This document shows, piece after piece, positions 17,183 to 37,644 of a stretch of 64,000 bases of DNA. The stretch's first letter is position 1, and each line of letters opens with the position of its first letter. The notes below the pieces were generated by a model, which saw only the letters and a program-made list of their open reading frames with translations, was not told the origin of the DNA and searched no databases. This DNA is from Anaeromyxobacter sp. Fw109-5 (GTDB lineage: Bacteria > Myxococcota > Myxococcia > Myxococcales > Anaeromyxobacteraceae): positions 3,047,001 through 3,111,000 of the forward strand of contig NC_009675.1 in the NCBI RefSeq assembly GCF_000017505.1, given 5' to 3'. The position numbers were made by a program, and so were the translations under genes.

Positions 17183-18052
17183 TCACGGCAGGCGGAGATC
17201 GAGCACGACGGGCTGATGATCGGAGGCGCGCGCCACGTCGGTCCCGCGCTCGACGACGGCGCGGACGATCGCCGCCGCGCTCGCCCGACCGACGAGCAGC
17301 GCGTCGAGCCGCTCGGCGGGTGAGCCCGAGGACCACGTCGTCTCCCAGCTCGGCAGCGGATCGACGTGGGCGCCGTCCCCGGCGAGCGGCGCCAGCGCCG
17401 GTGCCGTGGGCGGATCGTTGAGGTCGCCGCCCACCAGCACGAGCGCCTCGGGGTCCGCCTCGGAGATCGCGTCGGCGATGGCCCGCATGCGGGCCGCCTG
17501 CGCCGCGCGGCGCGTGCCGTCATCGGAGAGGCGCGAGCTGAGGTGGCTCGCGACGATGGCGATCCGCCGGCCGCCCACGCCGAGGTGGACCTCCACGCAG
17601 TCGCGCGGCCACAGCGTGCGCCCGTCCCCGTCGAGCTCGGCGGCGTGGCTCACGTACCGATGGATGGAGGGCCGCGACAGCACCGCCACGTCGATGCCGC
17701 GCGGATCGTTCCCCTCGACCAGCCGCGCCTCGCCGTAGCCGGCGCGCGCCGCCAGGGCGGACGCGAGCGCGAGGGTCTCGACCTCCTGGAGCAGGACCAC
17801 GTCGGCGTCGACCCGGAGCAGGACCTCCGCGACGGCGTCGAGCTTCGCCTTCACCGCCTCGGGGGACGGGAGCGCGTCCTCGGCCCCAGGCGGCAGCAGG
17901 CGATCCTCCGCGTCGAACAGATCGTGGACGTTCCAGGTCGCGACGCGCAGCACAGTTCCCTCGAGCCCAGGGCGCCGGTCCGCGGGAGCGTCCAGGAGCG
18001 GACCGCACCCGGCGACGACGGCCGCGACGAACGTGAGCGCTCGTGACCTCAT
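17183..18052 (-). CDS. Lipoprotein with endonuclease/exonuclease/phosphatase fold
   Basis: The start at 18052 gives 289 residues with a lipoprotein signal (ALTFVAAVVAGC). The mature part has the EEP-fold motifs in order: VATWNVHDLFD, VVLLQEVETLA (metal-binding Glu), IVASHLSSR, VLVGGDLNDPP (catalytic Asp-Asn) and ASDHQPVVLDL (catalytic His). The fold hydrolyses phosphodiesters in DNA, RNA or lipids. A membrane-anchored exported form suggests an extracellular DNase or phosphodiesterase. It lies 38 bases downstream of the beta-barrel gene of the cytochrome operon and may be co-transcribed; whether it serves that system is unknown. Confidence 0.78.
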   Translation of the reverse strand: MRSRALTFVAAVVAGCGPLLDAPADRRPGLEGTVLRVATWNVHDLFDAEDRLLPPGAEDALPSPEAVKAKLDAVAEVLLRVDADVVLLQEVETLALASALAARAGYGEARLVEGNDPRGIDVAVLSRPSIHRYVSHAAELDGDGRTLWPRDCVEVHLGVGGRRIAIVASHLSSRLSDDGTRRAAQAARMRAIADAISEADPEALVLVGGDLNDPPTAPALAPLAGDGAHVDPLPSWETTWSSGSPAERLDALLVGRASAAAIVRAVVERGTDVARASDHQPVVLDLRLP

Positions 18053-18090: not shown

Positions 18091-19776
18091 TCAGTAGGTC
18101 GCGTACAGCGCCACGTTGCCGGTGAGGCCCCACGAGGTCGACCCGGCGCCCTCCGCGGTCGTCAGGGGTGAGCGGGAGAGGGCCGAGATCTTCAGGCCCA
18201 GGTGGCGACCGAGGTCCGCCGCCGCGCTCGCCACCACCCCGAGCTCGTCGCGATCGACGCCGAGCGTCTTCGCATGAGACCAGGTGGCGCGGGCGAGCAG
18301 GCGGAGCGGATCCCACGGCCGCGCGACGAGCTGGGCGTACGCGCTGCGGCCGGCGAGCCACCCGCCCTCCTCGAGGTAGCCGACGGTCAGCCCGCCGCGG
18401 CGCCCGAGGAGCCGCGGGATCCCCAGCTCCGGCCCGGCCCAGGCGCGACCGAGGTCGTGCTCCGCGTCCCGGGAGAACCCTCCGGTGGCGCCGAGGCGGA
18501 GGAAGGATCCGAGCTCGACCGCGGCCCAGGCGTCCGCGGCGTCGCTGCGGCCCGGGAAGAGGGCCGGCTCGGTGACCTCGGGCCACGCCAGCCCGGCGTG
18601 ACGGTAGCTCGCGCCCAGGGAGACCGTCCGCGTAGGCCGGGCGGCGACGTCCACGCGCGCCGCGTCGAGGAGGGCGCCCGCCTGCTCCTCGCCGCCCGCG
18701 CCCAGCTGGGCCTCCGCCGAGACCTCCCCCGCGCGCAGCCAGGCGCGTCCGGCCAGCGTCGCCTCGACCCGGGTGCCCAGCTCGGGCGAGCGGACCACGG
18801 CGAGCCGTCCCTCATGCCGAAGCCTCCCGCCACCCAGCGCGCGCTCCAGGGACCAGAACCCGCCGCCGGTCGAGCGCTCCGTGGTGGGCGAGAGCGTGTC
18901 TGGCTCGGGCACCACCCCGCCGAACAGCCCCACCTCGGCGCTGCCTCGCCGGACGGACGCGCTCGCGCCGTCGAAGACCGTCGCCCCGAGCACGTGGTAC
19001 GGCAGGATTCGACCGGCGGAGAGCCGGACGGCGGACACGGGCGCGGAGAGCTGCGCCTGCCACAGGTACAGCCGGGCGTCGTCGTCGGGCCGGAAGCGCG
19101 GGTTCGCGCCCGGAACCCAGCGCTCGGCGCGCGCCTCGAGATCGAGGACCACGTCCGCGCCGAGCGGCGCGCCGCGCAGCGCGAGATCGAGCCGCTCGAC
19201 GGAGAGCGTCGACGCTCCCGTGGAGGCCCAGCTCACGTGCTCGAGCCCCGCCACGGCGATCCGCCGCCGCGCGGGCGCCTCGCGGCGCTCTCCGGGACGG
19301 AACTCGACGCGCACGACGGGCGCCTCGGCCGCGGCTCGGGCGCGCGCGGCCAGCTCCTCGGCGGTGGGGAGCGGGGCCGGCGACGGCGGCGCTGCGGGCT
19401 CGGGAGCCGGCGCGAACGTGACCGTGTCGCCCGGACGGAGCGCCGTCGCGGGGCAAGCGGCGTGGTGCTCTCCCAGCTCGTCCACGGTGCAGCGGCCCGC
19501 CTCGGCGCCCCTGCGTCGGGCCATCACCACGGCCTCGAGAGCGAGCCCATCGGCCGCGCCGACGTCGAGGTAGGCGCGCGCGGCGGTGACGTAGACCACC
19601 GCGCCCGTGCCGCGACGACGTTCGGGGCGGGGCGCGTCGGTCGCCGTTCCGGCGCTGGAAGGGGCCGGCGAGGCCGCGAGCACGACCGCTCGCCCTTCGA
19701 CAGGCTCGGGGCGAGCGGAACCGGTTGCGGGCAGCGCAACGGCGGAGACGACGGCGAGCAGGAGGCAGGCGCGCAT
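18091..19776 (-). CDS. Outer-membrane beta-barrel of the multihaem cytochrome operon
   Basis: The start ATG shares one base with the stop of the 9-haem gene (TGATG). The 561-residue product has a signal peptide ending near residue 20, a short domain with one Cys pair (GRCTVDEL, HHAACPAT), a Pro/Ala linker, and from about residue 150 a run of alternating amphipathic strands with aromatic girdles. It ends in WGLTGNVALYATY, and a C-terminal aromatic is typical of BamA substrates. No known porin family is named with confidence. By position it is the best candidate for the barrel that lets electrons cross the outer membrane. A REP-like palindrome encodes RPEPVEG just after the signal peptide. Confidence 0.6.
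   Translation of the reverse strand: MRACLLLAVVSAVALPATGSARPEPVEGRAVVLAASPAPSSAGTATDAPRPERRRGTGAVVYVTAARAYLDVGAADGLALEAVVMARRRGAEAGRCTVDELGEHHAACPATALRPGDTVTFAPAPEPAAPPSPAPLPTAEELAARARAAAEAPVVRVEFRPGERREAPARRRIAVAGLEHVSWASTGASTLSVERLDLALRGAPLGADVVLDLEARAERWVPGANPRFRPDDDARLYLWQAQLSAPVSAVRLSAGRILPYHVLGATVFDGASASVRRGSAEVGLFGGVVPEPDTLSPTTERSTGGGFWSLERALGGGRLRHEGRLAVVRSPELGTRVEATLAGRAWLRAGEVSAEAQLGAGGEEQAGALLDAARVDVAARPTRTVSLGASYRHAGLAWPEVTEPALFPGRSDAADAWAAVELGSFLRLGATGGFSRDAEHDLGRAWAGPELGIPRLLGRRGGLTVGYLEEGGWLAGRSAYAQLVARPWDPLRLLARATWSHAKTLGVDRDELGVVASAAADLGRHLGLKISALSRSPLTTAEGAGSTSWGLTGNVALYATY
19686..19718. repeat. REP-like palindrome inside the beta-barrel gene
   Basis: Perfect 10-bp arms CCGCTCGCCC and GGGCGAGCGG enclose a 13-base loop. 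Read on the minus strand it encodes RPEPVEG. This short palindrome is a widespread dispersed repeat; here it sits in frame directly behind the signal-peptide region. Confidence 0.65.
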
Positions 19777-20570
19777 CAGCCTTCCACCCGCCCCGCCGGA
19801 TGACACCCGAGGCACGCCGGGGTCTCGTAGCGGTAGTCGGGCTGGTTGTCGTGCCTCCCGTCCGTCTCCGCCCGCACGTGGCACCCCAGGCAATCCGCGA
19901 CGGTGAAGTCCGCGCCGAAGGGCTTGTCGGCGCGCCAGGCGGGGTGACACCGGAGGCAGTCCGCCCGATCGGCGACGTGCTTCGTGCCGGAGCCGATCGG
20001 GAACCCGGTGTGAGTCGACAGGCGATCGACCTGCGAGTCCGCGTGGCAGGCGAGGCAGCGGCGCGAGTCGAAGGCGTAGCCGCCCACCTGGAGGTGGTCG
20101 CCGTCGGCGGTCGCGCGGGTGTGCGGGTGGCACCCGGCGCACGCGAGCGCGGTCCGGTCCGTCGGCGAGAGGTGGCACTCGCGGCAGGAGGTTCCCGCGT
20201 GCGCGCCGCTCGAGATCGGGAAGATGGGCCCGTGGTTCACCCCGGCGCCGTCGGGGTGGCAGCGGTAGCAGGCCTCGCTCGCCCAGGAGAAGTCCTGCAC
20301 CGCGGCGTCGGCGTGCTGCTGCGCCACCTCCGCCTCGCTCGCGTGCGCGCCGGTGTGGCAGTGCAGGCAGTCGAACTGCCGGAAGCTGGGGAAGTCGGCG
20401 TGGCAATCGTCGCAGCTGCACTCCTCGTGCGGCGTGCCCGGCGTGGCCGGGAACGAGCGGGCGGCGTGCTGCTCCGGCGTGGGCATGGTGAGCCAGGGTG
20501 GCGCCGGGTCCCTGCAGCCGGAGAGCGGCGCGAGCGCGAGGCCCAGCGCGACGAGGAGCGCGCGCGTCAT
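19776..20570 (-). CDS. Nine-haem c-type cytochrome lipoprotein
   Basis: The 264-residue product starts with a lipoprotein signal (LGLALAPLSGC, lipobox Cys19) and contains nine CXXCH haem-attachment motifs, the first CDDCH at residues 53-57 and the last CLGCH just before the end. Extra histidines are spaced to act as distal ligands. It is coupled by ATGA to the 30-haem gene before it and by TGATG to the beta-barrel gene after it. A lipid-anchored cytochrome between a large periplasmic cytochrome and a barrel suits electron transfer at the outer membrane; side of exposure and partners are inference. Haem loading needs the cytochrome c maturation system encoded elsewhere. Confidence 0.88.
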   Translation of the reverse strand: MTRALLVALGLALAPLSGCRDPAPPWLTMPTPEQHAARSFPATPGTPHEECSCDDCHADFPSFRQFDCLHCHTGAHASEAEVAQQHADAAVQDFSWASEACYRCHPDGAGVNHGPIFPISSGAHAGTSCRECHLSPTDRTALACAGCHPHTRATADGDHLQVGGYAFDSRRCLACHADSQVDRLSTHTGFPIGSGTKHVADRADCLRCHPAWRADKPFGADFTVADCLGCHVRAETDGRHDNQPDYRYETPACLGCHPAGRVEG

Positions 20571-23170
20571 GGGAGCCCTCCGGGGCGGGCGCGGCCGAGG
20601 TTCTCTCCGCCCCCGTCGTCCGTCGAGAAGCGGTGGCACTCGTAGCAGCGCCGGTCGGCGCAGGCGAAGCCGCCCACCGGCTCGTGCTCGGCGCAGGAGT
20701 GGCAGCGGGTGCAGGCGGCGGTGCCCGACTGGCACGCGAAGGGCTGACCGTAGTCCACGGGAGGGATCGACGTGTGGCAGTCGCGGCAGCGGATCCCCGC
20801 GTGGTGGCCGCGCGTGATCGAGAAGCACTCCTCGTGCGCGGGCAGACCCGCCGGGGCGAACCGCCAGGTGCCGTGGCAGCCGCGGCAGTCCCGCGGGAAG
20901 CCGGCGAGGTCGTGATTCACCGGGGAGGCGCCAGAGGCCGCCCGCTGCCAGTCCGGCTCGTGGCACGCGACGCACTCGCGCGTGGGGCGGGTGAACCCGC
21001 GATCGCGGCGGTCGCCGTGGCAGGACTCGCACGGGGTGACCGCGTGCCGGCCCGTGAGGGGGAACGCGCTCCGCCGGTGCGCGTCGGCGTCGAAGGTCGT
21101 CGTCTCCCAGCCGGTCGCCTCGTGGCACCTCTCGCAGCGCCGGCCGAGCCGCCCCTGGTGCACGTCCGCGTGGCACGCACCGCAGGCGCGCGGCAGCGGC
21201 GTGGCGAACGACGCGTCGGGGTGGCAGCCCCGGCACGACGCCTCGCGGTGCCGTCCCTCGAGCGGGAAGCCCGTGGCGTCGTGCGAGAACGCGACCTTCT
21301 GCCAGCTCTCCGCCGTGTGGCAGCGAGCGCAGCGGGTCTCGCCGTCCTGCCGGAACGCCCCCCGGTGGAAGTCCACGTGGCAGGCCTGGCACTCGCCCGG
21401 GAGGGGCCGGTACCGGCGCACCTCGACCGTTCCCACGCGCGCGGCGGGGTGGCACCTCTCGCATGCGACCCCCCGGTGCTTCCCCTCGAGCGCGAAGGCG
21501 GTGAACGGCTTCCGGTGCTCGAAGCGGAGCGGCGCCGGCGCCTTCCAGCCCTCCGTCCCGTGGCAGCGGCCGCAGTCGGTCCCCTTCCCCTCCGCGGCGA
21601 GCTGTCCCGCGTGCGCGTCGGCGTGGCACGCGGCGCACGAGGTGTCGAGCGGGCGGTAGCGCACCGTCCCGGCCGCGTCGCGCCGGTGGCACGCGCCGCA
21701 CGCGGCCTTCTCGTGCTTGCCGGCGAGGGGGAACCGGCTGTCCTTCGCGTGATCGAACCGCGCACGGCGGAACGACTCCACCAGGTGGCAGCTCGCGCAG
21801 CCCCCCTCCTCGAGGCGTTTGCCGAACTGACCGGCGTGCGGATCGCGGTGACAGGTGCGGCAATCGCGCGCCCTGGGCACGTCGAAGCGCGCGAGGCTCG
21901 CCTTCACCGGCCGCCCCGCGCGGCGGAGCTCGGCCCGGGTTCCGGTCGGGATCGTGCGCTGCTCGTCCTTCGGGTGGCACAGGGCGCAGGCCACCGCGCG
22001 GTGAGCGCCCTCGAGGCGGTAGGCGAGCCGGTCGTGATCCGCGGCCTCGAAGCGCGCCGGGAGCCAACCTTCCAGGCCGTGGCAGGCGTCGCAGGTCCGC
22101 TGCGGGGTGCCTGCCGGCGCCTTCAGCGCCGTCGCCAGCGTCTCGAGCTGCCCCGCGTGCGCGTCGGCGTGGCAGTCGGTGCAGCGGCCGAAGGGCAGCC
22201 CGCGGAAGCGGGCCTTCGCGCCTGCGGTGGAGCCGTGACAGGCCTCGCAGCGCACCGCCGCGTGGGCCCCGCGGAGCGGGTAGCGCGTGCGGTCGTGGAA
22301 GGCGCGCTCGCGCACGGCGCCGCTCACCTTCCTCCAGTCCGCGGGGGCGTGACAGCCCGCGCAGGCCGACCCGAGCCGACCCTGGTGCGGATCCTTGTGG
22401 CAGTCCGTGCAGGCCTGGAACGCGAGCCCCTTGTAGCGCACGAACCCCGACCGCGAGACGGGCGGGGTCTGCCCGGGCGCGCCCGACGGCGGGGCCGGCT
22501 CCGGCTCGCTGCGGTGACACTTCGCGCACGGGATCGTCGCGTGCTTCCCCTCGAGCGGATAGGCCGCCCGCGCGTGGGCGAAGCGCGGAGCGGGCTTCCA
22601 GGCGTCCTCGACGTGGCAGCGCTGGCACTCGGCGCCGAGCTGCCCGCGGTGCTCGTCGAAGTGACACGCGGCGCAGGCGGTGGGCGCCCCGAGCAAGGTC
22701 TCCCGCCCCGGCTGCTTGCCGAGCACCTCGAGGACCGCCGGATCGCGGACCAGGCGGCGATCGTGGCAGCGCGCGCAGTCCACGCGCCGGTGCTTCCCCC
22801 GCAGCTCGAACCCTGCCCGGGCGTGATCGAACCCCTTCCTGCCCGCCCTGCCCCAGTCGACGAGGGGGAAGTCGCGGCCCTGGTGCTCGTGGTGGCACGT
22901 CTCGCAGGCGCGCTCCCTCGGCGGGAGCCGGCCATGGAACCCGCGCCCCTCCAGGACGCGCGCCCGGAGCTCGGTGTGGCACGAGAGGCAGCGGTCCGGC
23001 GAGAGCTGCTCGCCCGCGACGTGGCACCTCGTGCAGCTCGCGAGCCCCTCGAGCGCGCGGTGGGGGCGGGAGAGCTCCCCGGGCGAGAAGACGCTCTGCG
23101 CCCTGGCCACGCTCGCGAGCATGGCCAGGGCGGAGAGGACGAGGGCGGAGGTCGCGCGCGAGGTCGTCAT
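20567..23170 (-). CDS. 30-haem c-type cytochrome with seven tandem three-haem modules
   Basis: The start at 23170 overlaps the preceding stop (ATGA) and begins a signal peptide MTTSRATSALVLSALAMLAS cleaved after VARA. The 867-residue product has 30 CXXCH motifs, about one per 29 residues: four near the N-terminus, then seven tandem modules of three (residues about 166-730), then five at the end. Each module follows the plan CXXCHxDxHxGQL, CXXCH..W, FPLxGKH..CXXCH. A periplasmic nanowire-like role is expected. The 30-haem count makes it one of the larger cytochromes, of a type mostly found in metal-respiring bacteria such as Anaeromyxobacter and Geobacter. No redox partner is proven. Confidence 0.93.
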   Translation of the reverse strand: MTTSRATSALVLSALAMLASVARAQSVFSPGELSRPHRALEGLASCTRCHVAGEQLSPDRCLSCHTELRARVLEGRGFHGRLPPRERACETCHHEHQGRDFPLVDWGRAGRKGFDHARAGFELRGKHRRVDCARCHDRRLVRDPAVLEVLGKQPGRETLLGAPTACAACHFDEHRGQLGAECQRCHVEDAWKPAPRFAHARAAYPLEGKHATIPCAKCHRSEPEPAPPSGAPGQTPPVSRSGFVRYKGLAFQACTDCHKDPHQGRLGSACAGCHAPADWRKVSGAVRERAFHDRTRYPLRGAHAAVRCEACHGSTAGAKARFRGLPFGRCTDCHADAHAGQLETLATALKAPAGTPQRTCDACHGLEGWLPARFEAADHDRLAYRLEGAHRAVACALCHPKDEQRTIPTGTRAELRRAGRPVKASLARFDVPRARDCRTCHRDPHAGQFGKRLEEGGCASCHLVESFRRARFDHAKDSRFPLAGKHEKAACGACHRRDAAGTVRYRPLDTSCAACHADAHAGQLAAEGKGTDCGRCHGTEGWKAPAPLRFEHRKPFTAFALEGKHRGVACERCHPAARVGTVEVRRYRPLPGECQACHVDFHRGAFRQDGETRCARCHTAESWQKVAFSHDATGFPLEGRHREASCRGCHPDASFATPLPRACGACHADVHQGRLGRRCERCHEATGWETTTFDADAHRRSAFPLTGRHAVTPCESCHGDRRDRGFTRPTRECVACHEPDWQRAASGASPVNHDLAGFPRDCRGCHGTWRFAPAGLPAHEECFSITRGHHAGIRCRDCHTSIPPVDYGQPFACQSGTAACTRCHSCAEHEPVGGFACADRRCYECHRFSTDDGGGENLGRARPGGLP
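20981..22675 (-). repeat. Seven tandem three-haem modules within the 30-haem gene
   Basis: Modules begin at the codons for residues near 166, 254, 330, 437, 512, 594 and 663 of the cytochrome. Each has the same order: a haem motif followed by DXHXGXL/F, a second motif followed by a Trp or Phe, a FxHxxxxFPLxGKH-type segment and a third motif. Lengths range from about 65 to 107 residues. The repeats have diverged in sequence but not in plan. Confidence 0.85.
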
Positions 23171-25389
23171 CTGCGGAGGAGCCCGTAGCCGAGGTAGAGC
23201 GAGAGCCCGATGTGGGCGGCGATGGCGAGCACGAGGAAGACCGCCAGGGAGGCGTGGAAGACGCGCCAGCCGCGCAGGAGGCGCTTCAGCGAGCCGTAGA
23301 AGCGGATCTGCCAGCGGAGCCGCGCGAGCCGCACGACCTCGTCGCGCAGCTCGCGGAAGCGGCGCCGGTCCTCGAAGCGGCCGCGCAGGGCGAGCAGCCG
23401 CACGCGCACCGAGAGCGCCTCGAGGGGCATCCGCACGAAGAGCAGCGCGAACGAGCTCGCCTGGACGGGAGCGGTGACCCGGTCCACGAGCGCCCGCGCC
23501 GGAGCGCCGCCGCGCGCGAGCAGCGGCCCGAGGTCGTCGCGCAGCCGCTCGAAGCGGGCGAGCAGGTCCGCGAGCTCGACGGCCTTCCCGCCGTCGGACG
23601 GGACGGCCCCGTAGATGAACCGGCCCACGATGCCCGTGGTCACCACGATGCCGAGCGCGCCGGCCGTGCCGCTCGCGAGGAGGTTGTTCGACTGGAACGC
23701 CGCGTGGAACGCGATGACGAGCGGGCTCATGAACCCCACGAAGACGTGGAAGTCGAGCCAGCCCTTGATCTTCCCGAGCGCCCCGAGCCGCTTCCAGCGC
23801 TTGCGCGCGGCGTAGAGGAAGTTGGAGAGCATGAACGCCGTCGCCGCGATCCCCACCCCGTGCCCCCACGGCCCCGCCGACTTGAGGCTCGGGTGCGCCG
23901 GAGAGCGGAGCCGCTCGACGCGCGACAGCGGGTAGTACTCGTGCCCCTTCCACGCGAGGAAGGCCAGGATGGCCGCGCCGGCGAGGACGTAGAGGACCCG
24001 GAACACGCGCCGCCGGAGGCGCTCGGCCCGCTCCTGGCCCGCCGCGGCGCGGCGTCGCGCCGCCTTGGCGTCGTCGCCGCGCTCGCCGGGCGCCTCCCCG
24101 TGGAAGCGCCGCAAGGCGACGCCGGCCTTCGCGAGGAACTCGAGCGGCAGCTCGCCGCCCACGTTGACGATGACGAAGTCGTTCTCGAGGCTGGTGACGT
24201 GGCCGCCGAGCTCGAGCGAGACCTCGCCCGGGCGGATCTCCCGGACCTGGGACGGCAGGAGCATCGTCACCCGCCCCGCCGCCGCGAGCGCCTCGATCTG
24301 CTTGCGGTTCGCCTCGCGGCAGCGCGCGAGCTCGGCGCCGCGGTACGAGAGCGTCACCTCGGCGTCGCTCTGCCCGGCGAGCTGGATCGCCCCCTCGAGC
24401 GCAGCGTCCCCGCCGCCGACGACGAGGACCTTCGCGCCGTCGTACTGCTCCGGATCGGTCAGGCCGTAGGAGACCTTCGCGAGCTCCTCACCGGGCACGC
24501 CCAGCTTCCGCGGCGTCCCGCGCCGGCCGATGGCCAGCACCACCTTCGCGGCGGGCACGGGGCCGCGCTCGGTCTCCACGACGAAGCGGCCGTCCTCGCC
24601 GCCGATGCCGGTGACCTTCACCCCGTGCTCGACCCGGATCGCGGCCCGCTCGAGGACGCGGCGGAAGTCGGCGAGCAGCTCCTCCTTCGTCATGAGGCGC
24701 CGCCCGAACCGACCGACGAGCGGCAGCTGAACGGTCTCGGTCATCGCGACCTTCTGCCGCGGGTAGTGCGCGATGGCGCCGCCCACCTCGCCTTGCTCGA
24801 GCAGCCGGAACGGCACCCGCCGCGCCTTCAACCCGAGCGCCGTGGCGAGGCCGGCCGGGCCGCTGCCCACCACCACGACCTCGCCGGAACCCGGCGCGAC
24901 GAGCTCGGCGAGCCGCTCGGCCGCCTCGAGCCCCTGCGCGAAGGCGTTCTTGATGAGGCCCATCCCGCCGAGCTCGCCGACGACGTGCACGCCCGGGCGG
25001 GAGGACTCGAAGAACCCGTCCACCTCGGGGAGGTCGACGCCGCGCTCGGCGGTCCCGAACACCAGCCGGATCGCGCCGACCGGACACTCCGCCGCGCAGC
25101 GTCCGTGGCCGATGCAGTGATCGCCGTGCACGAGCCGCGCGGCGCCGTCCACGACGCCCAGGATGTCGCCCTCCGGGCACGCGCGCAGGCAGGAGAGGCT
25201 GCCGATGCAGATGTCCGGGTCGATCACGGGGTGCAGCGAGCGCGGGAGGTGCCCGCCGCGCGCGGATCGCTCGCCGAGCGTGGCCTCGTCACGGCGCTGG
25301 CGCGCGCTGCGCCGCGCCACGTGGCCGCGCGCGAGGAGCCCCACGGCGAGGAGAGAGCCGGCGACGATCACCGCGGAGGCGAGATCCAT
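23167..25389 (-). CDS. Ferredoxin/FAD-oxidoreductase/cytochrome-b-like fusion membrane protein
   Basis: Start chosen at the ATG at 25389, which opens with a membrane helix (LASAVIVAGSLLAVGLLA). The 740 residues hold: two degenerate ferredoxin motifs (C61-C71, C92-C102) with CX5CX3CP spacing; an FAD-binding fold (VVVGSGPAGLATAL near 175) and NAD(P)-binding fold (VLVVGGGDAALEGA near 325) of the thioredoxin-reductase type; and from residue 463 five membrane helices with histidines in LDFHVFVGF, IAFHAAF and WRVFHASL, like a ferric-reductase or cytochrome b module. It could pass electrons between cytoplasmic NAD(P)H and the quinone pool or periplasmic cytochromes. First gene of the four-gene conduit operon. 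Direction of electron flow is unknown. Confidence 0.82.
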   Translation of the reverse strand: MDLASAVIVAGSLLAVGLLARGHVARRSARQRRDEATLGERSARGGHLPRSLHPVIDPDICIGSLSCLRACPEGDILGVVDGAARLVHGDHCIGHGRCAAECPVGAIRLVFGTAERGVDLPEVDGFFESSRPGVHVVGELGGMGLIKNAFAQGLEAAERLAELVAPGSGEVVVVGSGPAGLATALGLKARRVPFRLLEQGEVGGAIAHYPRQKVAMTETVQLPLVGRFGRRLMTKEELLADFRRVLERAAIRVEHGVKVTGIGGEDGRFVVETERGPVPAAKVVLAIGRRGTPRKLGVPGEELAKVSYGLTDPEQYDGAKVLVVGGGDAALEGAIQLAGQSDAEVTLSYRGAELARCREANRKQIEALAAAGRVTMLLPSQVREIRPGEVSLELGGHVTSLENDFVIVNVGGELPLEFLAKAGVALRRFHGEAPGERGDDAKAARRRAAAGQERAERLRRRVFRVLYVLAGAAILAFLAWKGHEYYPLSRVERLRSPAHPSLKSAGPWGHGVGIAATAFMLSNFLYAARKRWKRLGALGKIKGWLDFHVFVGFMSPLVIAFHAAFQSNNLLASGTAGALGIVVTTGIVGRFIYGAVPSDGGKAVELADLLARFERLRDDLGPLLARGGAPARALVDRVTAPVQASSFALLFVRMPLEALSVRVRLLALRGRFEDRRRFRELRDEVVRLARLRWQIRFYGSLKRLLRGWRVFHASLAVFLVLAIAAHIGLSLYLGYGLLRR

Positions 25390-25574: not shown

Positions 25575-26507
25575 ATGCGCATCGCGGACGACATCACCCG
25601 GCTCATCGGCAACACGCCGCTCGTGCGGCTCAACCGCGTCATGGACGGCGCGCGCGCCACCGTGGCGGCGAAGCTCGAGAGCTTCAACCCGTGCTCCTCG
25701 GTGAAGGACCGGATCGGCGTCGCGATGATCGAGGCGGCGGAGCGCGACGGGCTCATCAAGCCGGACACGGTCCTCCTCGAGCCGACGAGCGGGAACACCG
25801 GCATCGGCCTCGCCTTCGCCGCCGCCGCGAAGGGCATCCCCATCGTGCTCACCATGCCCGAGACGATGAGCGTCGAGCGGCGCAAGCTCCTCCTCGCGCT
25901 CGGCGCGAAGCTCGTCCTCACCCCCGGGCCGGAGGGCATGAAGGGCGCCATCCGGAGGGCGGAGGAGCTGGCGGCCGAGGACCGGCGCTACCTCGTCCTG
26001 CAGCAGTTCGACAACCCGGCGAACCCGGAGATCCACCGGCGCACGACCGCCGAGGAGATCTGGCGCGACACGGAAGGCCGCATCGACATCCTGGTCGCCG
26101 GCACGGGGACGGGCGGGACGATCACCGGCTGCGCCGAGGTCCTCAAGGCGCGCAAGCCGGGGCTGAAGGTCGTCGCCGCGGAGCCGGCGGACTCGCCGGT
26201 CCTCTCCGGCGGCAAGCCGGGGCCGCACAAGATCCAGGGCTGGGGCCCGGGGTTCGTGCCGAAGGTCCTGAACGCGAACCTGGTGGACGAGGTGATCACG
26301 GTGGGCCACGAGCCCGCCGGCGAGATGGCGCGGCGGCTCTGCCGGGAGGAGGGGATCCTCTCCGGGATCTCTTGCGGTGGCGCCGCCTGGGCCGCCCGAG
26401 AGGTGGCGCGCCGGCCCGAGAACGCGGGCAAGCTCGTGGTGGTCGTGCTGCCCGACACCGGCGAGCGCTACCTCTCGACCTGGCTGTTCGAGGACGGGGC
26501 GCGCTGA
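25575..26507 (+). CDS. cysK: Cysteine synthase A (O-acetylserine sulfhydrylase)
   Basis: The 310-residue enzyme has the complete family set: [16 protein letters not shown] at the N-terminus, the PLP lysine in [11 protein letters not shown] near 43, the asparagine loop [12 protein letters not shown] near 70, the phosphate-binding [10 protein letters not shown] near 178 and [12 protein letters not shown] near 265. It condenses O-acetylserine with sulfide to L-cysteine in the cytoplasm. GGAG lies seven bases before the ATG. CysM or a cystathionine beta-synthase-type activity is possible but less likely given the length and loop sequence. Divergent from the cytochrome operon; a demand for Cys in cytochromes may be coincidental. 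Confidence 0.93.
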
Positions 26508-27416: not shown

Positions 27417-27489
27417 GACCCCATCGTCTAGAGGCCCAGGACTCGGCCCTTTCAAGGCCGCAACCGGGGTTCGAATCCCCGTGGGGTCA
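27417..27489 (+). tRNA. tRNA-Glu (anticodon TTC)
   Basis: A complete 73-nt cloverleaf: acceptor GACCCCA/TGGGGTC with discriminator A, anticodon loop CTTTCAA in a CGGCC/GGCCG stem, and T arm CGGGG/CCCCG with TTCGAAT. CCA is not encoded. Its 3' part is the parent of the tandem repeats and att cores that follow, and it stays intact because the mobile element entered the next repeat, not this gene. Confidence 0.95.
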
Positions 27490-27625
27490 ACTCGTCTCTC
27501 CCGCTCGGCCGAATCCCGGGCCTCGTAGCGCCCTGCGGGCGCGGAGACGATGACCCGCATCGGGAGAGCCCAGGATCCTCGGCCCTTTCAAGGCCGCAAC
27601 CGGGGTTCGAATCCCCGTGGGGTCA
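27490..27625 (+). repeat. 136-bp tRNA-Glu-derived repeat, unit 1 (left of the element)
   Basis: The unit holds a 60-bp spacer with the hairpin GCGCCC-TGC-GGGCGC, then a degenerate tRNA-Glu copy. Its anticodon arm, T arm and 3' acceptor strand match the intact gene, but the 5' acceptor (GACCCGC) loses two pairs and the D arm is altered. It is identical to the three units at 37096-37503. The last 24 bases are the left att core. Confidence 0.9.
27602..27625 (+). other. Left attachment core (attL)
   Basis: The 24-bp core covers the T-arm and 3' acceptor strand of the degenerate tRNA-Glu copy, the usual target of tyrosine integrases. To its left is chromosomal repeat sequence; to its right CTTTCTTTC begins the element, nine bases before the integrase stop. 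Confidence 0.85.
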
Positions 27626-27633
27626 CTTTCTTT

Positions 27634-28779
27634 CTAACTGAAGTTGCTGCTGTTTTTCTCGGACGCCTGATTCTGTGCCCGATTTGTGCCCTGGTCCTCC
27701 AGGGCCCTGATCCCCTCGACCGGAGCCGAGGCGGACAGGTGCAGGTAGCGCATCGTCGTCTCCACCGACTGATGCCCTGCGAGTCCCTTGATGGTCAGCA
27801 TCGGGACGTTCCGCGCAGCCAGCCGCGAGCAGAACGTGTGACGGAGGATGTGGACCCTCCCACCCTGCCGTAGCCCTGCCCGACGCTCAGCGACGTCGAT
27901 GAGCCACTTCAGTGGCCACTTCGTGATCGGCTCGATGCCCTCGTAGAGGATGCGAGGGCCCTTCAGATGCCGGTGGGCGTGTAGCGCTGCCTTCAGCCTC
28001 GCGGTCATCGGGACGACTCGCGGCTTGCCGCCCTTTGGCAGGGTCACAGCCCCGTCGCACTCCGACCGCTGGACCTTCATCAGGCCTCGAGTGAAGTCGA
28101 GATCCGACCACTCCAGGGCGAGTATCTCCCCGAGCCGGAGACCGGCGTCACCGCCCAGGAGGACGGCAACGTGGGTGCGGGGATCGACCTTTCCGGCTGC
28201 CGAGACGAGCCGCTCGAGCTCCTCGTCCTCGTAGAACTCGACTACCGGCTTGGCGGACTTGAGGAGCCGTATCCGGCACGGCATCGCCTCGATCACCCGC
28301 CACTCCACCCCGACCTTCAGCATCTTGGAGAGGACGGTGACGACGTTGTTGACGCTCTTCGGCTTCAGCTTCTGCGCCGAGAGCCGCCCCTTCAGCAGCT
28401 GCACCTGGGCGTCATCCACCTCGTCCAGGCGGCGGTCGCCAAGCGACGAAAGGTGCTTTTTCCAGATGCGTTCGTGCGTCGCGATGGTTGAGGGCTTCTG
28501 CTGGTTCGCCTGAGCGTGGCCCTCGATGAACTTGGGCCAGAACTCAGCCAGCGTCAGTACCTCCTTCTTCACCGGAGCTTCGGTCCCGCCCTGGGCCAGG
28601 ATCTGGTCACGCCTCTTCGCTGCCCAGAGCCGAGCCTCTGTCTTGTTCGCCACCTGGGCGACGACTCGCTCCCGGACGATCTGTCCGGATGCCAACCTGA
28701 TTCGGATTTCACAGATCCAGCCGCCCCGCTTACTGCGCGTGTTCGGCTTGACGATGATGCCGTCCTTAGCTTGCGCCAC
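27634..28779 (-). CDS. int: Tyrosine-type site-specific integrase
   Basis: Start chosen at a GTG at 28779 with GGAGG six bases upstream, giving 381 residues; an earlier in-frame start lacks such a site. The N-terminal part is a basic arm-binding region (IIVKPNTRSKRGGW), followed by a SAM-like core-binding domain (LAEFWPKFIEGHAQANQQ). The catalytic domain has GLRLGEILALEW (Arg), LPKGGKPR (Lys), HILRHTF (His-x-x-Arg), GHQSVETTMRYLHL (His and nucleophile Tyr). It should integrate and excise the element at the tRNA-Glu core. It overlaps the excisionase-like gene by 14 bases. Confidence 0.93.
   Translation of the reverse strand: MAQAKDGIIVKPNTRSKRGGWICEIRIRLASGQIVRERVVAQVANKTEARLWAAKRRDQILAQGGTEAPVKKEVLTLAEFWPKFIEGHAQANQQKPSTIATHERIWKKHLSSLGDRRLDEVDDAQVQLLKGRLSAQKLKPKSVNNVVTVLSKMLKVGVEWRVIEAMPCRIRLLKSAKPVVEFYEDEELERLVSAAGKVDPRTHVAVLLGGDAGLRLGEILALEWSDLDFTRGLMKVQRSECDGAVTLPKGGKPRVVPMTARLKAALHAHRHLKGPRILYEGIEPITKWPLKWLIDVAERRAGLRQGGRVHILRHTFCSRLAARNVPMLTIKGLAGHQSVETTMRYLHLSASAPVEGIRALEDQGTNRAQNQASEKNSSNFS
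27674..27690. repeat. Arm-type integrase site, left copy
   Basis: TGTGCCCGATTTGTGCC, itself two TTGTGCC-like half sites, lies inside the 3' end of the integrase gene. An identical copy in the same orientation lies near the right end at 36924-36940. The position of each within about 150 bp of an att core is that expected of arm sites for the integrase N-terminal domain. Confidence 0.6.
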
Positions 28780-28966
28780 CGGAAACCTCCGAAGGCGACA
28801 GCCCACAGGCGACGACCCCTAGCACGTCCTTCCGGCGGAGGTACACGCTCCTCCCCACCCGGACGACGTCGAACTGGCCTCGCTTGATCCGACAGCGCAG
28901 GGCGTTCTCCGTCATCCCCAAGACGACGGCGGCTTCCTTCAGCGGAAGCAACATCGGTTCGGCCAC
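28766..28966 (-). CDS. Excisionase-family helix-turn-helix protein
   Basis: The 66-residue basic protein MAEPMLLPLKEAAVVLGMTE has the winged-helix excisionase/MerR-like DNA-binding fold: LKEAAVVLGMTENALRCRIK as the helix-turn-helix and VVRVGRSVYLRRKDVL as the wing. Placed directly before and overlapping the integrase gene, it is the probable recombination directionality factor, bending the arms for excision, and could also repress int. No repressor gene for lysogeny is evident nearby. Confidence 0.75.
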   Translation of the reverse strand: MAEPMLLPLKEAAVVLGMTENALRCRIKRGQFDVVRVGRSVYLRRKDVLGVVACGLSPSEVSGGAS

Positions 28967-29016: not shown

Positions 29017-29727
29017 CTACGCTGCCTCGGTCTCATCAGCGGTCTCGTCCTCGTACATCCACTTGTGTTCCTGGAAGTACTCCTCGCACTCGCGGTCCTC
29101 GTACTGCTGGCTGGAGTACCACTCCTCCTGTTGCTCCCAGGTGGCCTTGCGGATGGGTTGGACAAGGGAGGGGGTAGAGTAGCTATTGGCTACTCTACGA
29201 TCCGCGTGGGGGTGCGGATTCCCCAATGTGACCGCAGTGTTGGCCGCGTAGGGCCGCGCAGGGGAAGAGCTGATCCCCTTTACCCCTACGCACCTGAACA
29301 TGACCTTGCGGGCTCTACCGTCGGTGAACGTCATCATCCACTCGAAGGGGTCCTGGTCTCCCTTGTCGTTGTTACACCTGCTGCATGAGGGGACCATGTT
29401 GTCGATGTCGCTGCCGCCTCCGCGCTCCAGCGGGATGAAATGATCGTCTTCCTCGTACTTGCCCCCGCAGTAGAGGCACTTGTTCCCGAACAGCGCTGCC
29501 TTGGTCCTCATCTGCTCTGCGGTGTAGGTGCCCGCCAGCCCAGCTTGTGCGGCCCGCGTGTTGTTCTTGTGGGCCCGCTTGTGCGCCTTCTGCAGACCAG
29601 CTGCGGCCCGACGTTTCCGCGCCTTGTCGTTCTCCTTCTCCTGGCACGGCTGGCACCGCCGACCACAAACGATGGCCGTACCGCAGTCCTTGCACTTCTG
29701 AGCCTTCACTTCCGTCGTCGTGTCCAT
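29017..29727 (-). CDS. HNH endonuclease
   Basis: The 236-residue protein has an N-terminal zinc-ribbon-like CKDCGT...CGRRCQPC pair near residues 12-29 and a Lys/Arg-rich helix. The HNH core follows: KCLYCGGKYEEDDHFIPLER, then NMVPSCSRCNNDKGDQDP, with two CXXC pairs holding a structural zinc and DDH/N/N catalytic positions. The C-terminal third is acidic and Trp/Tyr-rich. HNH proteins of this kind act in phage DNA packaging, homing or defence. It is in a tight three-gene cluster with a 65-residue protein and a helix-turn-helix protein. Confidence 0.8.
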   Translation of the reverse strand: MDTTTEVKAQKCKDCGTAIVCGRRCQPCQEKENDKARKRRAAAGLQKAHKRAHKNNTRAAQAGLAGTYTAEQMRTKAALFGNKCLYCGGKYEEDDHFIPLERGGGSDIDNMVPSCSRCNNDKGDQDPFEWMMTFTDGRARKVMFRCVGVKGISSSPARPYAANTAVTLGNPHPHADRRVANSYSTPSLVQPIRKATWEQQEEWYSSQQYEDRECEEYFQEHKWMYEDETADETEAA

Positions 29728-36640: not shown

Positions 36641-37071
36641 GTTCCTCTCCACCCTGCTGGCGTTCTCGTTCCCGGCAAAAGATTGTGCGACTAACAGTGA
36701 GTGGAAGCCTCACAACGCCTGCCCTTCGGGAGTGCGCGCTGGTGACGCGCCTGAGGATGGGCGAACGTGCCCGTACATCTGGCCGTCGCGCTGAACTGGG
36801 CCGCCTCATCGGAGGGGTTTGGCGGCGTGTTCGCGCGGCCCTTGAGGCTCTTCTTACGGGACCATTGGGGCCATGCGAGCACGCCGCCCTGACCGCCCCG
36901 TGTCGACCTTCCGTGCGGAGAGTTGTGCCCGATTTGTGCCACGGCTAACGACGAAACCTGACCAGTCGTGACCTACCGGGACCAACCCCTCGGGAGCCCG
37001 AACCTTCCGTCTTCTCTGGTGAATTGGCGGAAAGCTGTGGGCTGTCGCCTAGTTAGTGAGAAGCCGGGTTA
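36641..37071. other. Right end of the element, gene-free
   Basis: 431 bp between the lipoprotein start and the right att core. It holds the lipoprotein promoter region, the second arm-type site and no supported gene. Confidence 0.55.
36924..36940. repeat. Arm-type integrase site, right copy
   Basis: Identical to the 17 bases at 27674-27690 and in the same orientation, 131 bases inside the right core. Confidence 0.6.
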
Positions 37072-37095
37072 GGGGTTCGAATCCCCGTGGGGTCA
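37072..37095 (+). other. Right attachment core (attR)
   Basis: Same 24 bases as 27602-27625. To its left is element sequence (AAGCCGGGTTA); to its right ACTCGTCTC begins the chromosomal 136-bp repeat. Confidence 0.85.
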
Positions 37096-37503
37096 ACTCG
37101 TCTCTCCCGCTCGGCCGAATCCCGGGCCTCGTAGCGCCCTGCGGGCGCGGAGACGATGACCCGCATCGGGAGAGCCCAGGATCCTCGGCCCTTTCAAGGC
37201 CGCAACCGGGGTTCGAATCCCCGTGGGGTCAACTCGTCTCTCCCGCTCGGCCGAATCCCGGGCCTCGTAGCGCCCTGCGGGCGCGGAGACGATGACCCGC
37301 ATCGGGAGAGCCCAGGATCCTCGGCCCTTTCAAGGCCGCAACCGGGGTTCGAATCCCCGTGGGGTCAACTCGTCTCTCCCGCTCGGCCGAATCCCGGGCC
37401 TCGTAGCGCCCTGCGGGCGCGGAGACGATGACCCGCATCGGGAGAGCCCAGGATCCTCGGCCCTTTCAAGGCCGCAACCGGGGTTCGAATCCCCGTGGGG
37501 TCA
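37096..37503 (+). repeat. 136-bp tRNA-Glu-derived repeats, units 2-4
   Basis: Three head-to-tail copies (37096-37231, 37232-37367, 37368-37503), identical to each other and to unit 1. Each has the GCGCCC-TGC-GGGCGC hairpin and a degenerate tRNA-Glu ending in the att core. Perfect identity points to recent duplication or conversion. Each copy is a potential integration target. Confidence 0.92.
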
Positions 37504-37644
37504 CTCGGTAACTTACCCGCCTCTGCTGCACTTCTCCTGGGCGCCTCCCCGTCTCCCTCAGGTCTCCCGCGCGGACCGCGTCGCTCGCGGCGGCGCGGAC
37601 GCGGCGACCTGCGTCCCGGATTTCTCGCCGCACCGGGCTCCGGT

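Follow-up and report, generated by a model that had tools for sequence, protein, structure and literature searches.

A candidate PCC3-type electron conduit with its inner-membrane protein fused to an Fe-S flavoprotein in Anaeromyxobacter sp. Fw109-5

The window analyzed here is a 64,000-nucleotide stretch of the Anaeromyxobacter sp. Fw109-5 genome. Four consecutive genes lie on its minus strand: gene A (25389-23167), encoding a 740-aa Fe-S/FAD/NAD(P)/cytochrome-b fusion protein; gene B (23170-20567), encoding an 867-aa protein with 30 CXXCH motifs and, as judged by eye, a signal peptide; gene C (20570-19776), encoding a 264-aa protein with nine CXXCH motifs and the lipobox LSGC; and gene D (19776-18091), encoding a 561-aa beta-barrel protein, again with a signal peptide recognized by eye. 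The genes overlap by ATGA (A/B and B/C) and TGATG (C/D). A preliminary description had presented four coupled genes with an oxidoreductase built into the conduit and one component for each layer of the cell envelope, and we recovered all of this: the coordinates, the overlaps, the 30 and 9 CXXCH motifs, the fused domain content of A, and an outer-membrane barrel for the outermost layer.

The N-terminal portion of A consists of a membrane anchor, two 4Fe-4S motifs (C61/S64/C67/C71 and C92/H95/C98/C102), and an FAD and NAD(P) domain (residues ~168-430) that was identified in Pfam/NCBIfam searches as a YpdA/TrxR-like oxidoreductase. Both Fe-S motifs lack their second cysteine and have Ser64 and His95 in its place, residues that were invariant in all 20 fused proteins aligned. 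The protein scored 142.9 bits as a YpdA/Bdr bacillithiol reductase, against an NCBIfam cut-off of 339.9, indicating a related fold only. When the model of the whole protein was used in a structure search, the matches listed were exclusively flavoenzymes, spanning residues 167-428; the flavin domain filled the results, and neither a cytochrome b nor a ferric reductase was among the matches listed. Positive charge is conserved directly behind TM1, ahead of TM2, and in the loops joining TM3 to TM4 and TM5 to TM6, and because of this pattern around the transmembrane helices we predict that the Fe-S/FAD part lies on the cytoplasmic side.

The C-terminal domain of A (residues ~456-740) has five helices, two WX3HX13H motifs (W544-X3-H548-X13-H562 and W708-X3-H712-X13-H726), and an SGXXG motif (SG573XXG), the inner-membrane signature given for PCC3 and PCC4 by He et al. 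(2017). From these motifs, the domain is predicted to bind two b hemes. It aligned with stand-alone membrane proteins of ~300 aa that adjoin 18-24-heme cytochromes; some membrane-protein members gave weak matches to DUF4405, Ferric_reduct, or cytochrome b561 (Ferric_reduct in only 5 of 19). The cytochrome-b part named in the preliminary description is therefore backed by the two conserved WX3HX13H motifs and by the weak family matches of relatives, but not by any Pfam match in the window protein itself. Besides the four heme ligands, two histidines near the periplasmic side, H499 and H510, are conserved. A search of the window's genome for a further copy of the membrane protein found none.

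Both B and C are class III/c7 multiheme cytochromes according to Pfam/NCBIfam. Although B does contain 30 CXXCH motifs, its earlier portrayal as a single 30-heme unit did not hold, as it comprises a 20-heme part (residues 1 to ~607) and a 10-heme part (residues ~608-867) that are encoded by two genes in most Myxococcota relatives. The 20-heme part corresponds to the 18-24-heme periplasmic cytochrome of PCC3: residues 1-628 aligned end to end, in one register and mostly at 28-33% identity, with the 18-24-heme cytochromes found beside the stand-alone membrane protein (E 1e-48 to 1e-117), whereas alignments of B to the neighboring extracellular-type cytochromes of Pseudomonadota were weaker (best E about 1e-23) and fell in several registers. 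Matches of C and of the last 10 hemes of B to PCC3 extracellular cytochromes from Pseudomonadota were likewise spread over several registers. C is predicted to be a surface or outer-membrane lipoprotein cytochrome; many relatives lack it or carry a substitute, with 27-56-heme neighbors taking its place in other Myxococcota.

D had no family match in Pfam/NCBIfam. Its model (mean pLDDT 81) places a small periplasmic beta domain (residues 57-120) after the signal peptide, followed by a 22-strand outer-membrane beta-barrel (residues 173-560), so the outer-membrane porin proposed earlier passed the modeling test set for it. BtuB-type receptors aligned with this model (Z 15.6-18 over 330-350 residues), and in a profile comparison D matched, over 300 columns, the porins encoded at PCC3-type loci (E 7.6e-6, probability 84). 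Barrels resembling D also sit in Pseudomonadota clusters.

Conservation in relatives had been set as a second test of the four-gene unit, and this test too did not refute it. Relatives of A were present in 55 of 195 Myxococcota genomes, and 31 of 40 loci around A from other Myxococcota kept the order A-B-(C)-D, with A, B, and D on one strand, which argues that the arrangement is not due to chance. In nearly all of these loci, B is split into two genes, one with 20 and one with 10 hemes. Most of the other nine loci are truncated where a contig stops, or are complete but for D, for which no gene was detected. Within Anaeromyxobacter, A is absent from four of nine genomes and is thus not the core metal-respiration system of the genus. 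Searches of the open-access literature for PCC3 and Myxococcota, or for extracellular electron transfer, Myxococcota, and porins, found no paper.

The preliminary description knew of no system with this composition, a claim that we could not sustain: a porin, a large periplasmic cytochrome, an extracellular cytochrome, and a di-heme-b protein are the four components listed for PCC3 (He et al. 2017, PMC5566968), which is also treated in a Gallionellaceae pangenome (PMC10734462). In the original account, the periplasmic multiheme cytochrome has a median of 21 hemes and the extracellular cytochrome a median of 34, and the inner-membrane protein, with five helices, two WX3HX13H motifs, and SGXXG, is encoded by its own gene of about 300 aa. 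The window's locus has a porin in the cluster (D), a large periplasmic multiheme cytochrome (B 1-628), and the inner-membrane signature (the C-terminal domain of A). Judged by sequence, the cytochrome-b half of A and the first ~20 hemes of B are the counterparts of PCC3 parts, and D probably corresponds to the PCC3 porin. The locus differs from PCC3 in the extra 10-heme unit of B, in its small extracellular candidate (C, with nine CXXCH motifs and a lipobox), and in the length of D, which at 561 aa is shorter than the porins of ~690-870 aa in the PCC3-type loci compared. Moreover, in the window and in its Myxococcota relatives the inner-membrane protein is not a separate ~300-aa product but is joined to an Fe-S/FAD/NAD(P) enzyme, and we therefore filed the locus as a fused variant rather than as plain PCC3. 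The flavoprotein is what is new relative to described PCC3.

Several other known systems were compared with the locus. PCC4 (He et al. 2017) has the same inner-membrane signature, associated Fe-S/redox genes, a porin, and multiheme cytochromes, but is set apart by its description, with three periplasmic cytochromes of 4, 5, and 10 hemes and no extracellular one; the heme numbers of B and C differ from these. MtrCAB, MtoAB, and PioAB also have a porin threaded by a multiheme cytochrome, often with a surface cytochrome, but there electrons are supplied by the quinone pool or by a photosynthetic chain, and membership was rejected as B, C, and D gave no MtrB/PioB- or DmsE-type NCBIfam match up to E 0.1. 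The porin-cytochrome principle is common to Geobacter Pcc (OmbB-OmaB-OmcB) and to the Pcc of Anaeromyxobacter, the same genus, yet the latter has periplasmic cytochromes of 12-14 hemes and 338-344 aa, without a surface cytochrome (Shi et al. 2014, PMC4245776), compared to 30 motifs and 867 aa for B, and was rejected on these grounds. An operon of syntrophic sulfate reducers combines a beta-propeller, 16- and 26-heme cytochromes, and a peptidyl-prolyl isomerase (PMC5539420); it was rejected, as its heme numbers differ and the four genes had no propeller or isomerase match. Finally, A resembles NADPH oxidases and ferric reductases, in which a cytoplasmic NAD(P)H-FAD unit feeds two transmembrane b hemes with paired HX13H motifs. 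Those proteins have Ferric_reduct followed by an FNR-type FAD/NAD domain, whereas the flavin domain of A is N-terminal, TrxR/YpdA-like, and accompanied by Fe-S motifs, with a proposed output to a multiheme wire; we retained this likeness as an analogy and not as membership.

Outside Myxococcota, the flavoprotein is encoded by a separate gene of ~435 aa, in most cases oriented divergently to that of the PCC3 inner-membrane protein; its association with PCC3-type conduits beyond this phylum had escaped the preliminary description. Of 398 evenly drawn Pseudomonadota genomes, six carried the membrane protein, and the full-length flavoprotein occurred in the same six. Among 369 Gammaproteobacteria, 40 had both, 1 had only the membrane protein, 2 had only the flavoprotein, and 326 had neither (Fisher p = 5e-50, a value that overstates independence, as the genomes are related and the profile for the membrane protein derives from loci found via the flavoprotein). 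The flavoprotein was on the same contig at 40 of the 46 gammaproteobacterial membrane-protein loci, within 1.8 kb at 36 of those, and the five genomes with two copies showed a 2:2 ratio of membrane protein to flavoprotein.

We consider it fairly probable that the locus encodes a fused PCC3-type conduit, in which the di-heme-b protein is joined to a cytoplasmic electron-input enzyme, NOX/ferric-reductase-like, and exports NAD(P)H electrons across the whole envelope. We infer NADPH as the donor, along with the cofactor order, assembly, surface position, direction, and physiological substrate of the conduit. In the cytoplasm, electrons would pass from NAD(P)H to FAD (and the two Fe-S clusters), then cross the inner membrane through two stacked b hemes, with H548/H712 on the cytoplasmic side and H562/H726 on the periplasmic side. 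The 20-heme part of B would bridge the periplasm, the 10-heme part of B and/or C would thread barrel D, and lipoprotein C would hand electrons to an extracellular acceptor. Outward use, as a reductive discharge, is probable. The preliminary description allowed for transfer in either direction, and here its case is weaker than claimed: with a cytoplasmic flavin domain, inward transfer to NAD(P)+ opposes the membrane potential and would be uphill for most extracellular donors, making inward flow less likely than stated.

Electrons might instead be exchanged between the b domain and the quinone pool, to which He et al. pointed electron flow in PCC3 (PMC5566968), with the flavoprotein feeding or draining that pool or playing a side role (for example, as an NAD(P)H:quinone oxidoreductase or in redox sensing). 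The conserved H499 and H510 would be consistent with such an arrangement, as would the weak DUF4405, Ferric_reduct, and cytochrome b561 matches, some of these families including quinone-reactive proteins. However, the flavoprotein is either fused to the membrane protein or inherited together with it at a nearly 1:1 ratio, and because it tracks membrane-protein copy number it is unlike a dispensable quinone reductase; we regard a quinone link as rather unlikely. Uptake from Fe(II), Mn(II), or a cathode, running through D, C, and B to A and reducing NAD(P)+ or quinone, is improbable. PCC3 is known from Fe(II) oxidizers and was proposed to act in oxidation (PMC5566968), and the inner-membrane gene of PCC3 copy 2 rises in iron-oxidizing Sideroxydans CL21 (PMC12442390), but both PCC3 clusters of S. 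lithotrophicus ES-1 are lower on Fe(II) (PMC8788666), and bioenergetically NAD(P)+ reduction from Fe(II) is uphill, with inward electrons opposing the membrane potential. Least probable of all, NAD(P)H could charge B for periplasmic reductions, as an electron store or detoxifying reductase with which D and C are loosely associated. Thirty hemes could hold charge and C is missing from many relatives, but D accompanies A-B across the phylum, and the similar barrels in Pseudomonadota clusters also argue against it.

PCC3 is little studied and occurs in many bacteria, both iron-cycling ones and ordinary aerobes; it has been depicted with a link to quinones, and Fe(II) oxidation is the role mainly discussed for it. 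The fusion of the flavoprotein in one phylum, and its inheritance in equal copy number with the membrane protein in another, point to a missing PCC3 component and suggest that NAD(P)H, and not only membrane quinones, generally supplies PCC3 conduits. The export reading predicts that cytoplasmic NAD(P)H is coupled directly to extracellular acceptors, which, if true, would alter the ways in which cells could balance their redox state and would link NAD(P)H and an electrode through the products of one operon. More tentatively, and with chances that we put a little short of even, PCC3-type conduits as a class may be NAD(P)H-driven, quinone-independent trans-envelope exporters, a surface-wired bacterial counterpart of the NADPH oxidases, with the Fe-S flavoprotein as an overlooked core component that is separate in Pseudomonadota and fused in Myxococcota. 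In a quick tree, the fused forms all fell on one side of a single branch (support 95).

The genes of the candidate trans-envelope conduit, A (25389-23167), B (23170-20567), C (20570-19776) and D (19776-18091), all on the minus strand, match the preliminary description exactly in the window sequence, both in their coordinates and in the overlaps ATGA, ATGA and TGATG that couple them. The genome is a single contig of 5,277,990 bases, in which the window spans positions 3,047,001-3,111,000. On one side of the operon is a divergent gene for a PLP-dependent enzyme of the cysteine synthase type (25575-26507); downstream lies an endonuclease/exonuclease/phosphatase gene (17183-18043). Outside the operon, a 186-nt unit with tRNA-Glu occurs as one copy on the left (27442-27627) and three in tandem on the right (37048-37505). 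The interval between them holds genes for a tyrosine integrase (27634-28806) and an HNH nuclease (29017-29727), and the arrangement looks like an integrated element of ~9.6 kb at tRNA-Glu.

Protein A joins an Fe-S/FAD flavoprotein part to a putative di-haem-b domain. Pfam gave no match for the cytochrome-b region of window A itself, which carries the motifs W544-X3-H548-X13-H562, SGTAG (573) and W708-X3-H712-X13-H726. H548, H562, H712 and H726 are invariant across 20 aligned relatives; SGXXG is found only in some Myxococcota relatives. The WX3HX13H/SGXXG signature is that of the inner-membrane proteins of the porin-cytochrome conduit classes PCC3 and PCC4, proteins that He et al. liken to ferric reductases and NADPH oxidases (He et al. 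2017, PMC5566968). In the remainder of A, Pfam and NCBIfam recognise a pair of 4Fe-4S motifs together with a Pyr_redox_3/YpdA-like domain; the nearest solved relatives are Bdr/YpdA and thioredoxin/ferredoxin-NADP reductases. Its GxGxxG (FAD) and GxGxxA (NAD(P)) motifs and the invariant R350 and R356 suggest, without proving, that NADPH is the nucleotide. From the charges of its loops, A is predicted to have both the Fe-S/FAD domain and the large 595-706 loop on the cytoplasmic side. Both Fe-S motifs of window A lack the second cysteine; Ser64 is invariant among the fused proteins and His95 in every aligned protein, fused or separate. The second motif reads CIGHGxCxxxCP, its histidine being invariant in all aligned fused and separate proteins (the L099-L157 flavoproteins among them), which suggests an unusual His-ligated or 3Fe-4S cluster.

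Among 195 Myxococcota genomes, A is present in 55 (E 1e-30 or better, with some of the weaker matches partial). A, B and D lie on the same strand in 31 of 40 fetched loci; the others are mostly cut at contig ends or without only a detected D. Of nine Anaeromyxobacter genomes, four have no A, and three of these four are near complete. One genome holds a second fused A-type gene (L068; G047:C26) with no B or D nearby and only a 14-haem gene resembling C ~4 kb away.

Scanning named genomes with two conserved segments from the Fe-S/flavoprotein half of A yielded >570 relatives, and 80 loci outside Myxococcota were kept. In most of these the flavoprotein is a separate gene of ~435 aa. It is often divergent from the gene of a ~300-aa membrane protein that has a pair of WX3HX13H motifs, and this membrane-protein gene is followed by an 18-24-haem cytochrome, another cytochrome and a porin. 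This is the PCC3 layout, exemplified by Bradyrhizobium sp. SSBR45G (L139). Separate genes that follow the window's order (L099, L117) occur in candidate phyla such as KSB1. Where the flavoprotein is separate (54 loci), the fetched stretch includes the membrane protein at 41, and residues 1-628 of B align collinearly with the 18-24-haem cytochrome.

The partnership of the two proteins was counted with separate profiles in two genome draws, unselected for the system except for each centre genome; the genomes are related by descent, and one (G244) belongs to both draws. Among 398 Pseudomonadota, the membrane protein (E <1e-68) and full-length flavoprotein (E <1e-187) occur in the identical six genomes, the centre genome included. 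The two lie on different contigs in two of the six, and all six have the 18-24-haem cytochrome beside the membrane protein. Of 369 Gammaproteobacteria, 40 have both proteins, one the membrane protein only, two the flavoprotein only and 326 neither; these counts leave out G209, whose partial match is limited to the oxidoreductase fold. The flavoprotein shares a contig with 40 of 46 membrane-protein loci in this draw, within 1.8 kb for 36, and the five genomes with two of one protein have two of the other. Because the membrane-protein profile was made from loci found through the flavoprotein, partner-free PCC3-like membrane proteins could be under-counted. In a quick tree one branch has all fused forms on the same side, which is consistent with fusion having happened once.

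From its fusion and its copy-for-copy co-inheritance, the flavoprotein is likely to be the partner that exchanges electrons with the b cytochrome. A wider claim, on PCC3 as a class, is of more interest than the window's system alone. The PCC3 papers covered (PMC5566968, PMC12442390 and PMC8788666 among them) give the system four components and name no flavoprotein as part of it; He et al. mention other redox genes for PCC4, among which a related protein may already have been noticed (PMC5566968).

As in an NADPH oxidase, cytoplasmic NAD(P)H/FAD would feed two stacked b haems, with B and D-C added as a wire instead of diffusion. Both the NAD(P)H potential and the membrane potential favour outward flow; inward flow from Fe(II) to NAD(P)+ would be uphill against both. 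This direction agrees with the reduced expression of PCC3 in S. lithotrophicus on Fe(II) (PMC8788666) but not with strain CL21, in which one PCC3 membrane gene rises (PMC12442390). He et al. model PCC3 electron flow to the quinone pool (PMC5566968), and quinones may be involved as in their scheme.

Protein B carries 30 CXXCH motifs in one gene, a form shared by a few other lineages. Three other Anaeromyxobacter genomes have its counterpart as two genes (20 + 10 haems), as do most other Myxococcota. C has nine CXXCH motifs and a lipobox, with equivalents of 8-14 haems in some relatives. Cytochromes with 27-56 CXXCH motifs adjoin the operon in Myxococcota without C (L046, L048, L051, L060-L063, L065-L067), perhaps as its replacement. 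The D model (mean pLDDT 81, pTM only 0.61) has disordered residues 1-49, a small beta domain at 57-120 and 22 barrel strands at 173-560. In structural alignment with it, 22-strand BtuB-type receptors score Z 15.6-18 (330-350 residues aligned) and OprD types Z 17-18 (~270 residues), and profile comparison of the barrel with PCC3-type porins is suggestive (probability 84). In the periplasmic 57-120 domain ahead of the barrel, cysteines 96 and 108 are nearly invariant, and two relatives show weak FlgT_C similarity there.
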